Assembly (NCBI GenBank): GCA_949300485.1 | Contig: CASGEL010000003.1 | Coordinates: 124,001 to 188,000 of the forward strand | Reading direction: 5' to 3' | DNA: 64,000 nucleotides | DNA from: an uncultured bacterium | GTDB lineage: Bacteria; Cyanobacteriota; Vampirovibrionia; Gastranaerophilales; Gastranaerophilaceae | Part shown: positions 41,936 to 49,636 of the stretch, piece by piece | How positions within the stretch are numbered: position 1 is the first letter of the stretch | How the letters are laid out: the number at the start of each line of letters is the position of its first letter | Program-made: the position numbers and the translations under genes | The notes under the pieces: model-generated | The model's database searches: none | Seen by the model: only the letters and a program-made list of their open reading frames with translations | What the model was told of the DNA's origin: nothing

Positions 41936-43528
41936 CTATCTTGTTGCCATAGCAATTTGGAGTTTTTGCGCAAATACGTTTGCCATTTGGTTTAAAAATT
42001 CTTGATTACCGACCATATTTCCTAATACGGTAACTTGAATATTTATTCCGCTGTTATTGTTTTTTACAATTTCTTTTGAAATATCATGCGGAATTATCCT
42101 TGACCCCGTCGGCAAATCGACAATTTCGCCACCGAACTCGTTTATTTTAGTTTTTCCGCCAGAATAAAAAGAAGTCCCGACGGCATTTTTTTTGACAACT
42201 GCCCCGTCTTCGGTTTTAACTTCGGTTTTTCCTTTTATCCCGACAAACTTTTTAACCGCGTCAATGGCTTTTTTGATTGATTCAGTTACTTTGTCCCAAT
42301 TCTCGACAAGAAGTTTAATTCCGTTAATAAACATTCCTATCGGAGTAAACGAAAAAGCAATCGCAATCCATTTTCCTATTACTGCAAGCGCGGGTTGTAT
42401 TTTTTCATAAAAAGACATAAAGGCTTTTTTAACCGCGTCCCAATGAGTAACAAGCGCAATTATGCCAGTTATCAACAACCCGATACCGACGGCAATCATT
42501 CCGATAGGGTTTGCAATCATTAACGCATTCCAAACCCCTTGTGCAACACTAACCGCCTTAATTACTGTTTGTAATGTTTTTATAGTTGCAATTACTCCGT
42601 TTATGGCTTTATATGCAATAAATGTCGTTAAACAAATTGTTGCAATCCATTTTAAGGTGTTAAAATTTTCAATCAAAAATTTTACTGAATTAGTCAAAGA
42701 ATCAAAAACGGGGGTCAATGCTTCGCGAATTTTCGGCAATTCGTTAATTAAAGCACCTGTTAATTGATTGATTATCGGCAATAACTGACCGCCAATCATC
42801 GCACCATATCCCGCGCCGATACTTTTTAATTTTTCCATTGAATCGCCGAATTGATTTCCCGCGTCGATTACATCGTCCGAAATGGCAATCCCTAGTTTTT
42901 TATATTCTTCGCGTTGTTTTTGGAAAATTTCAATATTTTGATTGAATAATGGCATTAGTTCAGAGCCAGAACGACCCAATAAGTCATTTGCTAACTTTGC
43001 CTTTTTCGCGCCCTCTGGCATTCTTTGAAGTGCGGAAACAACTTCATTGAAAACCTGTTCTTGATTCTTTAAACGCCCCGAAGAATCTTTGACAGAAATC
43101 CCCAACGCTTTAAAAGTTGCAACTGATTTTTTGTTACCCTGCGTTACTCCGTTAATCTGATTAACAAGGGTTTTAAATCCCATTTGTAACGATTCAATAC
43201 TGGCACCGTTTTGCCCTAATAGATAATCCCATTCTTGAAAACCCGCACGAGAAATACCGATTTTATTTGATAAATCGTCTATTCTGTCACATGTTTGACT
43301 GGATTTAACCGCCAATGCTGACAACGCGCCGATTGACCCAACAACGCCCGCACTAACTACGGTACAAGCCTTTTTTAAATTCCCGCCTAACTCTTTTGAT
43401 AATTTTCCGATTTGATTGTGAAGTTTTTTTGCTTCTTTTTCGGTTATCCCGATTTTATCAGCAAGTTTTTTTATGCTCGGTGAACATTTGTCTTGAAGCG
43501 CGAAAATTAAACCGATAGTGCGTCCCAT
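41936..43528 (-). CDS. Tail tape measure protein
   Basis: 530 aa, short for a tape measure, so the tail is short. Coiled N-terminus, then a TP901-type region (AVKSSQTCDRIDDLSNKIG, GFQEWDYLLGQNGASIES, KLANDLLGRSGSELMPLF), several hydrophobic segments in the middle (TICLTTFIAYKAINGVIATI, GLLITGIIALVTHW) and a C-terminal conserved SGGKTKINEFGGEIVDLPTG. Start at 43528 overlaps the T-frame of the chaperone by 22 bases. Confidence 0.93.
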   Translation of the reverse strand: MGRTIGLIFALQDKCSPSIKKLADKIGITEKEAKKLHNQIGKLSKELGGNLKKACTVVSAGVVGSIGALSALAVKSSQTCDRIDDLSNKIGISRAGFQEWDYLLGQNGASIESLQMGFKTLVNQINGVTQGNKKSVATFKALGISVKDSSGRLKNQEQVFNEVVSALQRMPEGAKKAKLANDLLGRSGSELMPLFNQNIEIFQKQREEYKKLGIAISDDVIDAGNQFGDSMEKLKSIGAGYGAMIGGQLLPIINQLTGALINELPKIREALTPVFDSLTNSVKFLIENFNTLKWIATICLTTFIAYKAINGVIATIKTLQTVIKAVSVAQGVWNALMIANPIGMIAVGIGLLITGIIALVTHWDAVKKAFMSFYEKIQPALAVIGKWIAIAFSFTPIGMFINGIKLLVENWDKVTESIKKAIDAVKKFVGIKGKTEVKTEDGAVVKKNAVGTSFYSGGKTKINEFGGEIVDLPTGSRIIPHDISKEIVKNNNSGINIQVTVLGNMVGNQEFLNQMANVFAQKLQIAMATR

Positions 43529-43671
43529 ATTTTCCCCTTTTCCTCAAAATCTAACATCATAGACGCAATCATTAAATTTTTATCATATATTGATATATTG
43601 TTTAAATATTCAAGTGTAAAACCGCGTTGTATATAATGATGTAAAAATATTAAATCAACGTCTTCATTTAT
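43507..43671 (-). CDS. Tail assembly chaperone T-extension, made by -1 frameshift
   Basis: A second frame starts exactly at the A9 run (43671-43679) at the end of the chaperone gene and runs 54 codons to a stop at 43507. It has no start codon and no Shine-Dalgarno at the front. It reads INEDVDLIFLHHYIQRGF and LNNISIYDKNLMIASMMLDF, typical of the T part of G-T chaperones. The heptamer A-AAA-AAA is in the right frame for -1 slippage at the stop of the G part. Product G-T would be 183 residues from the chosen G start. Confidence 0.8.
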   Translation of the reverse strand: MNEDVDLIFLHHYIQRGFTLEYLNNISIYDKNLMIASMMLDFEEKGKIWDALSV

Positions 43672-44057
43672 TTTTTTTTAATATTCTGCAACGATTCTAT
43701 GTCATTTCCGTATGCTTGAAGAATGGCATTTCCTAACTGCATAAACTCCACGATATTTGCCCCGTATATTTTTTTGGGTAATAAATACGGGTCGTCGATT
43801 TCGTATTCTTCTAATAACTTTTTATCCCTAAACTGCGGGCAATTTTCATATATTAAACGCGAATATGCGTATGTTTCATCGTCTGCACCTTTTGCCATTA
43901 CTGTCAAAAGTTCCATAAACTCGCGCGGGTGTGTGTTTTCAATAGTTAGATTTCCGCCGAACAGATTTGAATAAAACGGCGCGGGGCTTTTTTCAATTAA
44001 CCCCTTTTTCTTTAAAATCATTTCGGTTGTTACCGTTTTTATTTTCTTTTCTTCCAT
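43668..44057 (-). CDS. Tail assembly chaperone, G part (XkdN-like)
   Basis: 129 aa from the ATG at 44057. The frame opens to 44075, but the shorter start has GAAAGGAAAAACAGGC-ATG. It is placed between tail tube and tape measure, as G chaperones always are. It contains VAKGADDETYAYSRL-like helices and PREFMELLTVM. Ends in a poly-A run and stop, where -1 slippage would make the longer G-T form. Confidence 0.85.
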   Translation of the reverse strand: MEEKKIKTVTTEMILKKKGLIEKSPAPFYSNLFGGNLTIENTHPREFMELLTVMAKGADDETYAYSRLIYENCPQFRDKKLLEEYEIDDPYLLPKKIYGANIVEFMQLGNAILQAYGNDIESLQNIKKK

Positions 44058-44142
44058 GCCTGTTTTTCCTTTCATTTTATTTATTGTTTACAAACAAGAA
44101 TCACGGACAGGTGTTTAACCCTGTCCGCTATTCTTTAAACAA

Positions 44143-46956: not shown

Positions 46957-46976
46957 ATTTTGTCATGATATATAAT
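46948..46976 (+). promoter_or_regulatory. Consensus sigma-70 promoter of hicAB
   Basis: TTGACA (46948-46953), 17 bases, TATAAT (46971-46976). Matches consensus at all 12 positions. The expected transcription start is near 46983, where hicA begins, so the message would be leaderless or nearly so. Confidence 0.92.
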
Positions 46977-46982
46977 AACAAT

Positions 46983-47213
46983 ATGAGTAAAGTTGATAAA
47001 ATAATTCAAAAGTTCAAACAATCAAATGCGGGTCAAAGATTTGAAGACTGCGAAAAAGTATTATTTGAGCTAGGTTTTGAATTAAAACGCGTCAAAGGCT
47101 CTCATCATCAATACAGAAAAGACAATTTTACTTTAACTATTGCAAATCATAAGCCCGTTGCAAAAGACGCCGTAAACGATATATTAAAATTATGGGAGAA
47201 ATACCATGAATAA
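46983..47213 (+). CDS. hicA: HicA family mRNA interferase toxin
   Basis: 76 aa from the ATG at 46983. The frame extends to 46965, but that would place the start inside the promoter. Conserved HicA sequence: LGFELKRVKGSHHQYRKDNF (catalytic His in GSHH), TIANHKPVAK and the final DILKLW. It is a toxin that cleaves mRNA. It overlaps hicB by 8 bases. The gene faces the phage operon on the opposite strand. Confidence 0.93.
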   Translation: MSKVDKIIQKFKQSNAGQRFEDCEKVLFELGFELKRVKGSHHQYRKDNFTLTIANHKPVAKDAVNDILKLWEKYHE

Positions 47214-47562
47214 AAAATTAAAAACTTTAGAAGATTATTTAAAATTACCTTGGCAATTTGAATTTGATTATTGCCCAGATGAAAACTCTTATACTGCAAG
47301 GGTAAAAGGTTTAATGTGCTATTCTAACGGAAAAACCTTAGAAGAAGCAACAAAAAATATTCAAGAAGCCTTGCAGTTTCATATAGAGGGTTGTTTAGAA
47401 GATAATATACCGATTGAGATTATTGACGAAGAACGTGCTACTGGTCGAATTGCAATTAGAACATCAAAGGCAACCCATTTAAAATTATTACACATTGCAG
47501 AAGAACAAGATGTTTCTATTTCTCACTTAATAAATGACGCAATTATTAAACAATACGGTTAA
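47206..47562 (+). CDS. hicB: HicB family antitoxin
   Basis: 118 aa. The N-terminal partial RNase H-like domain (FEFDYCPDENSYTARVKGLM) is followed by a C-terminal ribbon-helix-helix (TSKATHLKLLHIAEEQDVSI) that binds DNA. It neutralises HicA and likely represses the hicAB promoter. Its stop overlaps the stop of the facing head-tail adaptor by 2 bases. Confidence 0.93.
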   Translation: MNKKLKTLEDYLKLPWQFEFDYCPDENSYTARVKGLMCYSNGKTLEEATKNIQEALQFHIEGCLEDNIPIEIIDEERATGRIAIRTSKATHLKLLHIAEEQDVSISHLINDAIIKQYG

Positions 47563-47900
47563 ACTTTTTCAGTAACAAAAACTTGTAATTCTTCGTGCTT
47601 GAATCCGTCATCTAAAGAATAATTGACGTCGAAAGTATGATTTTGATATTTAATAATATGTTTATCTGGTAAAATTTCGGGGAAATTATTATAATCCCAT
47701 GATATTTTATGCGTAACTGTTGTCATGACAGTATCAGCGGGACGACCTGTTAATAACCCGCCGACACGCGTTTCAACACAAGCAAAAAGACTTTTAACCT
47801 TGACTTCTGTTTCTATTTTTTCGCCTAAACGGTTTTCTTCTGTGCCTGTTTTTATTTCGTATATTTCAATATAATGTTTATATTTACCCCTGTTTGTCAT
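47559..47900 (-). CDS. Head-tail adaptor (head closure) protein
   Basis: 113 aa. GKYKHYIEIYEIKTGTEE, then TVTHKISWDYNNFPEILPDK and IIKYQNHTFDV: the fold of SPP1 gp16/XkdH-like head closure proteins. It lies between the connector (48196) and the HicAB insertion. Confidence 0.85.
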   Translation of the reverse strand: MTNRGKYKHYIEIYEIKTGTEENRLGEKIETEVKVKSLFACVETRVGGLLTGRPADTVMTTVTHKISWDYNNFPEILPDKHIIKYQNHTFDVNYSLDDGFKHEELQVFVTEKV

Positions 47901-48196
47901 TATTTCGCGCCCCCGTTTTCGTACGCACCGCGAATTTTAATATGTTTAATAATGGCGTCAAGAGTAAACGGCACGATGTTGACAGTTTTTTCGGTTACTG
48001 CTGAACGGTTGTCGTATAAATGCGCAACATGAAATAAAATTCCCTGCTCATATACTTTGTCACCGTCGATATATTCAACCCCCGTTTGCTCTTTAATGAA
48101 CGCCTTTGATGTTTCGACAAGGTCGGTCAAAAAAGCGTCGTCAATATCATGCGTTATTCTTAAATATGATTTTATTTTCGATAATTCAACCGACAT
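47900..48196 (-). CDS. Head-tail connector protein (gp6-like)
   Basis: 98 aa from the ATG at 48196 (AAAGGATTTATACAA upstream). The frame opens to 48223 through a TTG. IKSYLRITHDIDDAFLTDLV is the usual start of gp6-like connectors and LLFHVAHLYDNRSAV-like the end of the helical core. Stop overlaps the adaptor start. Confidence 0.85.
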   Translation of the reverse strand: MSVELSKIKSYLRITHDIDDAFLTDLVETSKAFIKEQTGVEYIDGDKVYEQGILFHVAHLYDNRSAVTEKTVNIVPFTLDAIIKHIKIRGAYENGGAK

Positions 48197-48251
48197 TTGT
48201 ATAAATCCTTTTACATAAAGCAAGGGCGGGACGCACCCGCCCTGTCTTTAT

Positions 48252-48524
48252 TTATTCCGTTGCTGTTTCTGCCAATATTAAAGCGATTAATGCTTCTTTG
48301 TTTGTATATGTATATGTCATTTCCAAAACATCAGCATACACTTTTAACTGCTCAACATTCATCGCTTTTAACTGCGTTTCGGTCGGAGTAACCGCCGCAA
48401 TTTTTTCGGTTAATGTCGTTGTTGTGTCCGCGCTGTCCCCGTCCGCTTCATAAGTAACCGATAACTTATCCGCGACCGCCTGCAATTGTTCAAGCGTTGG
48501 CGTTAAATCGTCGGGGACTATACT
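48252..48524 (-). CDS. Capsid extension made by -1 frameshift; LEM/HeH-like domains
   Basis: A 90-codon frame with no ATG or GTG and no Shine-Dalgarno begins at the A7 run that ends the capsid gene. Slippage on TCA-AAA-AAA (48524-48532) continues the capsid into SIVPDDLTPTLEQLQ, then a first LEM/HeH-like helix pair (LEQLQAVADKLS) and a second (NVEQLKVYADVLEMT to NKEALIALILAE). A TTG at 48485 is a weak alternative start. Frameshifting would give a minority form of 461 residues. Domain assignment is by pattern. Confidence 0.7.
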   Translation of the reverse strand, partial: SIVPDDLTPTLEQLQAVADKLSVTYEADGDSADTTTTLTEKIAAVTPTETQLKAMNVEQLKVYADVLEMTYTYTNKEALIALILAETATE

Positions 48525-49636
48525 TTTTTTGACATGACCGCGATTGCACCCAAATCTGCAAGCCCGCCGTCTGCAAGTGCAAGTATTCTATATACTACGT
48601 CGCCAGAAGCAAACGCGGTTTCTTCTGATTTTGAAATAGTCGCGTCTTTTGACCAGTTGAACATATATTCTGACAAATCTCCGAATATAATTGTTCCGTC
48701 TGGCACGTCGTCGCATTCAACAACTTCACGACCCAATACCTTATTTGATTCAAGGTCAAAAATAGGTCTGTTGTTATCATCAACAATTGCTTTAATTTCG
48801 TTATAAAGCGTATTTGTTGACATAACAAAATATGCGTTTCTACGCGCACGCGCGCTAATTTTAGATACAAGGTTTAAAAGGTCTTTGACAGTCCATGCGG
48901 TTGTTCCTGCGGTTTCGCTTGCTGTTAATGATTTTAAAATACCTTTTGCCCCGTTTGTACCTGCCCCGTTGATTATATCAGCGTCAAATGCTAATAATAA
49001 TTTTTTAGACAATTTTGTTACAATATAATCTTCTAAGGCGTCAATAGCGGTGTTTTCAAGTTCACAAGTTAAACGGACAAGTTTAATATACTTCTTCGCA
49101 CCTAATTTCAATTCGCCTAAAGTATCATCTTTAAGTGTACCGTCCGCGCCCTCTGCTTTTCTTTCAACGTCGTTCGTTGTTCCCTCAATAGGAATTGACA
49201 AGTTCCCGCTCAAATGTGAAACGGTTACTTTTCCATAAATAACCGAATCATTTTGTATTTTTCCATAAATTTTATTTAATGTTTGAGTAGGAACGGCAAC
49301 GCCTGCAGAACTGGTATTTGTAGTCATGGCGCGTTTTTCAACGTCATTTAATTCTACACCTGCAAGAGTTTTGAAGAATGCGGAACGATATTCTTTTGAA
49401 TCAACGCCGTAACTTCTTGCTTCTTCTTGTGGTTTTTGAAATTCGTTCCCGATTTCGCCTTTTCCGATTAAAGACATAATATTTGCACGTTTTTCAATAA
49501 TTCTTTCATCTGCTTCAAGCCCGCGCAATTCTTCTTCAAGTTTTGTCAAATCTTCTTCGGTCAAACTTTCGGATTCTTTTTCCATTTTTGAACGAATTTC
49601 TAATTTTCTTTTTTGAATTTCTGCTTTTGTTTTCAT
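48518..49636 (-). CDS. Major capsid protein, HK97 type
   Basis: 372 aa. N-terminal coiled-coil scaffold-like delta domain (Lys/Glu-rich, to about 100, cut off during maturation), then the HK97 fold beginning near MTTNTSSAGVAVPTQTLNKI with VSHLSGNLSIPIEGT, ALEDYIVTKLSKKLL and ADGGLADLGAIAVM at the end. The prohead protease precedes it. The stop is reached after the slippery A7, where a -1 shift adds a 90-residue extension (48252-48524). Confidence 0.95.
   Translation of the reverse strand: MKTKAEIQKRKLEIRSKMEKESESLTEEDLTKLEEELRGLEADERIIEKRANIMSLIGKGEIGNEFQKPQEEARSYGVDSKEYRSAFFKTLAGVELNDVEKRAMTTNTSSAGVAVPTQTLNKIYGKIQNDSVIYGKVTVSHLSGNLSIPIEGTTNDVERKAEGADGTLKDDTLGELKLGAKKYIKLVRLTCELENTAIDALEDYIVTKLSKKLLLAFDADIINGAGTNGAKGILKSLTASETAGTTAWTVKDLLNLVSKISARARRNAYFVMSTNTLYNEIKAIVDDNNRPIFDLESNKVLGREVVECDDVPDGTIIFGDLSEYMFNWSKDATISKSEETAFASGDVVYRILALADGGLADLGAIAVMSKKV

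Follow-up and report, generated by a model that had tools for sequence, protein, structure and literature searches.

A small number of cultured phages are known to extend their capsid proteins by frameshifting, and the domains added are mostly Ig-like. A preliminary description of the DNA analyzed here had given T7 (10B) and PSA as the few phages concerned; extension by frameshifting holds for these, but the group is larger, with PMC5009743 listing frameshift-extended capsids in T7, T3, A2, A118, and A500 (-1) and in PSA (+1). The A2 frameshift is reported to be required for an essential head component (PMC5009743), and a T7-like phage has been described in which proteins are displayed on the particle by way of the minority frameshifted capsid form (PMC13370021).

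The stretch of 64,000 nucleotides that we analyzed (hereafter, the window) comes from an uncultured bacterium of the Gastranaerophilales and contains a prophage whose capsid gene resembles that of Lactobacillus phage A2 (AJ251789) in several respects: both encode an HK97-type capsid, both place a heptamer just before the stop codon (CCA AAA GCG TAA in A2), and both have a -1 extension of similar length. The A2 junction PKSVTPDG also resembles KKSIVPDD in the window and KKAVTPAD in a related locus (L182). Unlike the window, A2 has an Ig-like extension and the heptamer C_CCA_AAA; its capsid gives no blastp match to that of the window, and its best match is to another relative (L021; E 0.007). 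From the sequence comparisons below, we consider it very probable that programmed -1 ribosomal frameshifting at the 3' end of the window's capsid gene yields, as a minority product, a ~461-residue capsid protein that ends in a tandem LEM/SAP/HeH-like domain; this form would be built into the head, with the domain probably displayed at its surface. In this one capsid family, 24 of 182 clusters have a LEM/SAP-like domain in the -1 frame, behind three types of motif.

The capsid gene, its 3' end, and the -1 frame

The major capsid gene (48518 to 49636, minus strand) encodes a zero-frame product of 372 aa with the HK97 fold (Pfam Phage_capsid, PF05065, 1.3e-41), and the predicted model aligns to HK97 and GTA capsids with Z scores of 17 to 20. 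The gene order of the prophage, all on the minus strand, is TerL, portal, S78 protease, capsid, connector, head completion protein, tail terminator, sheath-like protein, tail tube, and tape measure. Between two of the head-tail structural genes lies a HicA/HicB toxin-antitoxin pair (Pfam) on the opposite strand (46965 to 47213 and 47206 to 47562, plus strand). A small gene before the tape measure (43668 to 44075, minus strand), without a Pfam match, ends ATT AAA AAA AAA TAA; a -1 frame of 56 codons, headed by no start codon, runs on from this A9 (43507 to 43677, minus strand), and the site is probably that of a tail assembly chaperone frameshift, which would make it a second A-run -1 site in the prophage.

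The capsid gene ends ATG TCA AAA AAA GTA TAG, as the preliminary description had read it without mention of the minus strand, and the seven A's (48524 to 48530, minus strand) lie in the exact slippery phase, A_AAA_AAA in the zero frame, as they do in relatives. The zero-frame stop TAG (48518 to 48520, minus strand) follows one codon past the heptamer. The next gene encodes a head-tail connector (Pfam Phage_connect_1; 47900 to 48196, minus strand) whose ATG is preceded by AAAGGA, although the open reading frame can also be listed from an upstream TTG at 48223. A terminator-like GC hairpin (48223 to 48243, minus strand) is found between the extension and the connector gene and not between the capsid stop and the extension; it is likewise 3' of the extension in L006, L007, L021, L022, and L182 and directly 3' of the capsid stop in the extension-less L002, L004, and L005. 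Because the window's hairpin sits past the extension, the extension is part of the capsid gene's unit.

The -1 frame opens 67 nt upstream of the capsid stop and stays open through 48252. Counted from the heptamer to the stop TAA (48254 to 48252), the extension (48252 to 48530, minus strand) has 92 residues, beginning KKSIVPDDLTPTLEQLQ and ending LIALILAETATE; the open frame first reported is thus there, with its length of 90 codons corrected. That description had also found no start codon or Shine-Dalgarno sequence. The latter was absent before every candidate start in the window's -1 frame, and no start occurs early in it, but candidates do exist farther along: TTG at codon 16, ATG at 57, GTG at 64, TTG at 69, ATG at 71, and TTG at 86. 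Comparisons of homologous extensions indicate that this frame is under purifying selection as a protein. Over 88 codons, the window and L022 extensions are 77% identical in amino acids and differ at 17 first, 15 second, and 56 third codon positions; between L015 and L185, dN is 0.07 and dS 1.09. No constraint was visible between L006 and L021 (dN 0.085, dS 0.052), whose DNA is almost identical over the extension.

AlphaFold predicts five helices in the extension with confidence (mean pLDDT 86.7), and the model supports a LEM/SAP-like assignment, clearly for the second of two predicted helical units and more weakly for the first. Of the "two LEM/HeH-like helical units" of the preliminary description, the second thus matches SAP/HeH-type structures and the first is only weakly LEM-like. 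The second unit (residues 53 to 90; 48261 to 48374, minus strand) is HeH/SAP/Rho_N-like. It scores 19.1 bits against Pfam Rho_N (PF07498), under the cut-off of 24.9, and we therefore call the window extension LEM/SAP-like rather than a member of that Pfam family; homologous extensions reach the cut-off (L240, 36.5 bits; L022, 25.0 bits). The first unit (about residues 11 to 47; 48390 to 48500, minus strand) is pseudo-SAP/LEM-like in the model. In VIA-align comparisons the extension matched DEK (Z 6.0, rmsd 3.3, 80 residues, covering extension residues 5 to 92), YqbF (2hjq; Z 4.5, rmsd 2.9, 53 residues), and FAN1 (Z 3.5, rmsd 1.8, 44 residues), the last two being structural matches of the second unit; every Z is below 8, and even the best may mean no more than a shared arrangement. 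The matched regions of DEK and FAN1 are presumably SAP-type domains. A profile of the extension found FluMu gp35 (PDB 2out) among PDB sequences at 4.3e-4, whereas Foldseek with the model returned nothing from PDB and BFVD at E <= 0.001. The window extension had no Pfam match to the Ig-like CBM_X2 at E <= 1, unlike sister loci.

Conservation of the site and its association with an open -1 frame

The first scan with the capsid protein matched 10 viral contigs. Three of these (L006 to L008), with capsids 68% identical to that of the window, have TTA AAA AAA TAG and a homologous -1 extension; in the remaining seven (L002 to L005 and L009 to L011), A7 and extension are both absent, and the connector is the next gene after the capsid. 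Wider searches with capsid and extension added L015, L021, L022, L182 to L185, L240, L244, and L250, with the same phase in all and A_AAA_AAG as the heptamer of L182. L182, L183, and L184 were found by the extension profile itself, the other LEM loci by capsid searches, and L292 by a search with the L240 capsid. A search of genomes with the extension matched 5 of 384, its own included. At E <= 0.01, the order-wide search with the extension profile, run over 383 genomes, matched 22. The known cases account for five of these, and at the loci of the other 17 weak matches (L268 to L284) there was no capsid match. Among INPHARED phages, tblastn with the window extension gave nothing up to E 1.

The heptamer and a homologous -1 extension are kept in relatives whose zero-frame tails differ: the codons after the heptamer may be GTA TAG, TAG, GCG TAG, TCA TAA, TTA TAA, CAG TAA, or GCA CAG TCG TAA. 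The capsid of L021 is 43% identical to that of the window, but its extension is nearly identical to that of L008; extension and heptamer therefore appear to move together between capsid genes.

We counted the association over 258 capsid loci whose 3' end was complete. The motif was an in-phase A_AAA_AA[A/G] among the final 24 nt, and the extension a -1 frame open for at least 180 nt past the stop. The loci form 163 clusters by single linkage at 90% identity, which are not independent by descent. The motif is present in 25 clusters and the open -1 frame in all 25; among the 138 clusters lacking the motif, 18 have an open frame and 120 have none (Fisher p 3.3e-18, kinship ignored). The 18 are mostly the next gene with its own start, but one is L220, with A_AAC_CCT, and one is L248, with a LEM domain behind G_GGG_GAA. 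The shorter LEM extensions of L197 and L256 (152 nt) were missed because of the 180-nt threshold. Within capsid gene bodies (66,296 codons), A7 occurs 27, 12, and 16 times in the three phases, 16 being the count for the slippery phase. Taken together, these sequence counts indicate that the pairing of heptamer and open -1 frame is not chance.

In three clusters with an A-run near the capsid end in another phase (L195, L214, and L228), the extension is absent, and in all 25 motif-bearing clusters the zero-frame stop lies 0 to 3 codons past the heptamer. The run is exactly seven A's in 22 of the 25, so that conservation of the A7, for which the preliminary description had suggested looking, was found; the others have six (L182), nine (L240), and ten (L072). 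With L072 omitted, the two lysine codons are preceded in 24 of 24 clusters by a codon with A in third position, be it for Leu, Ser, Val, Thr, or Ile, against an average expectation of 0.15 for NNA AAA AAA from the genes' own codon usage, a comparison that is conditional since the clusters were selected by the motif and L182 has AAA AAG. On a fasttree tree of 146 capsids, presence of the extension needs 10 changes, of which the starred branches force 8, and the LEM label needs 7. The L072 capsid gene (3802) is AT-rich, with an A10 run before its stop and a charged, low-complexity -1 frame of 125 residues; although included in the 25, it probably differs in kind from the other clusters.

LEM and Ig modules at the capsid end

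A wider recount with a broader LEM profile and no length threshold covered 308 loci in 182 capsid clusters. A LEM/HeH-like domain was found at or downstream of the capsid stop in 25 clusters; it lies in the -1 frame at the junction in 24 of them and in none is it in the +1 frame or fused in frame. The 25th, L188, has a weak frame-0 match 201 to 300 nt downstream. All 24 clusters with the domain in the -1 frame have an in-phase slippery-type motif: A_AAA_AAA in 11, A_AAA_AAG in 1, A_AAA_AAC in 4, G_GGG_GAA in 7, and G_GGG_GAG in 1. The last is phage phiEG37K of Enterococcus gallinarum (LC625742), in which the extension is unannotated; gene callers end the capsid at its stop and can overlook an extension. 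The phages with -1 LEM extensions have Gastranaerophilales as hosts and, judging by relatedness, Firmicutes.

The junction type with G_GGG_GAA/G before the stop and the LEM domain in the -1 frame (L248, L381, L386, L394, L398, L413, L197, and L292) falls short of the complete X_XXY_YYZ pattern and is of uncertain slipperiness; in E. coli, tetramers of this kind were barely or not shift-prone, according to PMC4066793. Either slippage or coupled initiation could give its product. The preliminary description had held that a start codon with a Shine-Dalgarno sequence in homologues would count against frameshifting. The A_AAA_AA[A/G] LEM clusters have none, but an ATG overlaps the capsid stop (ATGA) in 5 of the 24 LEM clusters (L392, L410, L411, L394, and L413), all outside the A_AAA_AAA class, and in L248 an ATG lies 11 nt past the stop, so separate initiation is possible in these six. 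The junction of L392, L410, and L411, TTA AAA AAC TCA TGA, combines an in-phase A_AAA_AAC with the ATGA, and their LEM product could arise by either frameshifting or coupled initiation. In L220 and L389, GTA AAC CCT (A_AAC_CCT) before the capsid stop heads a third kind of -1 extension.

In twelve A_AAA_AAA clusters, Ig/X2-like domains replace LEM in the same phase and place. The label comes from Pfam CBM_X2 for L189, L209, and L216 and from sequence similarity for the rest; the sister capsid genes concerned include L189, L209, L210, L216, and L221. The LEM-bearing L240 is nearest in the tree to L217 and L209, which have Ig modules. In L244 and L246 (4176 to 4697), a Baseplate_J-like insert (Pfam 1.6e-16 in L244) splits two LEM-like halves, and the L244 extension also has a sub-threshold match to Pfam HeH (PF12949).

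Mechanism, competing explanations, and comparison with known systems

The site, its phase, the open frame, their conservation, protein-level selection, and domain swapping at the site are observed, and from them we infer ribosomal slipping, at some rate, as follows. Most ribosomes would terminate at TAG, producing the normal capsid protein of 372 residues, while a minority would slip back one base on A_AAA_AAA, the two lysyl-tRNAs re-pairing from AAA to AAA, and would read 90 further codons to give ~461 residues with a tandem LEM/SAP/HeH-like helical end. Copies of the long form would be incorporated into the head, and the extension domain would then probably sit at the capsid surface in low numbers, decorating it or acting as a weak adhesin. 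Residue 372 of the predicted capsid model aligns with HK97 residue 383, so that the model ends where HK97 gp5 ends and the extension would run on past the HK97 C terminus. A surface position is suggested because the last capsid residue is at that terminus and the extensions of other phages lie outside; with the display use in a T7-like phage and the X2/Ig-like nature of the sister extensions added, we put surface display with a weak adhesive or decorating role, the least certain step, at about an even chance.

Stimulatory elements were sought in 25 clusters. A downstream RNA stem or pseudoknot, put forward in the preliminary description as a check, did not appear as a conserved structure: the 60 nt after the site have a mean folding z of -1.00 +/- 0.31, compared with -0.50 +/- 0.15 in capsid gene bodies, and the window site alone has -2.17. 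No upstream Shine-Dalgarno-like stimulator stood out by eye in the same clusters. In PMC4066793, about 61% of heptamers are reported as significantly shift-prone in E. coli without a stimulator, and stimulatory elements are said not always to be found in bacterial -1 cases. The tRNA-Lys set of the host comprises UUU and CUU; tRNA-Lys(CUU) was rejected as the reason for A7 over A6G, as the genome of L182, with A_AAA_AAG, has it too.

Runs of A, reaching A9 in L240 and A10 in L072, also favor transcriptional slippage, in which RNA polymerase adds or drops an A and a fraction of the mRNAs encode the fusion in frame. We regard this as improbable: codon phase does not matter to a slipping polymerase, but here it is fixed and no extension follows the three out-of-phase runs, and the runs are mostly seven A's, with six in L182, where a longer homopolymer is the usual expectation. 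Related sites, moreover, are A_AAA_AAC, G_GGG_GAR, and, in A2 and iA2, C_CCA_AAA. The conserved phase, the near-constant run length, and the replacement of A7 by A_AAA_AAG or A_AAA_AAC favor ribosomal over transcriptional slippage. The LEM domain might instead be a separate small protein made by rare or coupled initiation inside the -1 frame, as is suggested by Streptococcus phages CHPC1151 and DCC1738, in which a separate Rho_N-type gene with its own start comes directly behind the capsid gene, and by the ATG codons at or near the stop in the six clusters above. For the window this is less probable still, since it and the other A_AAA_AA[A/G] LEM clusters have neither a start at a conserved place nor a Shine-Dalgarno sequence, the L240 extension has no start codon at all and that of L244 none before codon 99, and conservation of the A-run and its phase would go unexplained.

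Two further readings carry very little weight. Homopolymers are error-prone in some sequencing technologies, and a true run of A8 would make an ordinary in-frame fusion, but an assembly or sequencing error is scarcely credible when exactly A7 recurs in 22 of 25 clusters from different assemblies, is shared unchanged by L006, L007, and L008, which come from three metagenomes, and has nonhomopolymer versions elsewhere. It is just as hard to believe that the extension is the decayed remnant of an old neighboring gene that has lost its start and gives no product; near relatives (L002 to L005 and L009 to L011) do lack any extension, but the third-position bias is strong, the frame has stayed open across long divergence, and the extension occurs together with the heptamer again and again. 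Programmed -1 frameshifting, as the preliminary description proposed, is supported by conservation of the A7, its phase, and the -1 frame in independent relatives together with purifying selection.

Several known systems share parts of this arrangement. Phages iA2 and PLE2, with 41% capsid identity to L240, keep the site (C_CCA_AAA in iA2) but have only a short extension. T7 (10A/10B), T3, A118/A500, and PSA resemble the window in having a second capsid form with a frameshifted C-terminal extension but differ in slippery site and domain (Ig-like in T3, not in T7), and none is described as LEM-type in the part of PMC5009743 available to us. The sister Ig/X2 capsid genes share family, phase, and place with the window but have a beta-type module rather than a helical LEM/SAP one. 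The Rho_N/HeH genes of CHPC1151 and DCC1738 belong to the same domain class and adjoin capsid genes, of unrelated families; unlike the window extension, they are separately started. FluMu gp35 and Bacillus subtilis YqbF are also of this class but are separate proteins, not capsid fusions; we take their genes to adjoin capsid genes. Directly behind capsid genes in L298 (1804 to 1989) and L299 (1786 to 1968) are small proteins of the same domain class named "transcriptional terminator" or "Rho termination factor"; they are probably not termination factors.

We lean slightly toward a broader reading in which capsid genes of this family end in a conserved frameshift socket that phages of unrelated gut bacteria have filled, time and again, with exchangeable modules for display (LEM/SAP-like, Ig/X2-like, or Baseplate_J-insert hybrids), always in the -1 frame and on a minority of subunits; the Rho_N genes behind other capsids would then encode capsid-associated virion proteins rather than termination factors. 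The -1 LEM extension links to the capsid itself a small gene that commonly follows phage capsid genes, lacks an explanation, and mostly takes its name from Rho, and it points to a natural low-copy display site. The preliminary description had regarded the LEM-type extension as undescribed, and in the open-licence literature we likewise found neither a LEM/HeH/SAP-type frameshift extension of a capsid nor its exchange with Ig modules at one site. The mechanism is thus already known from other phages, whereas the LEM-type module and the exchange of LEM and Ig modules at one conserved site appear to be new.
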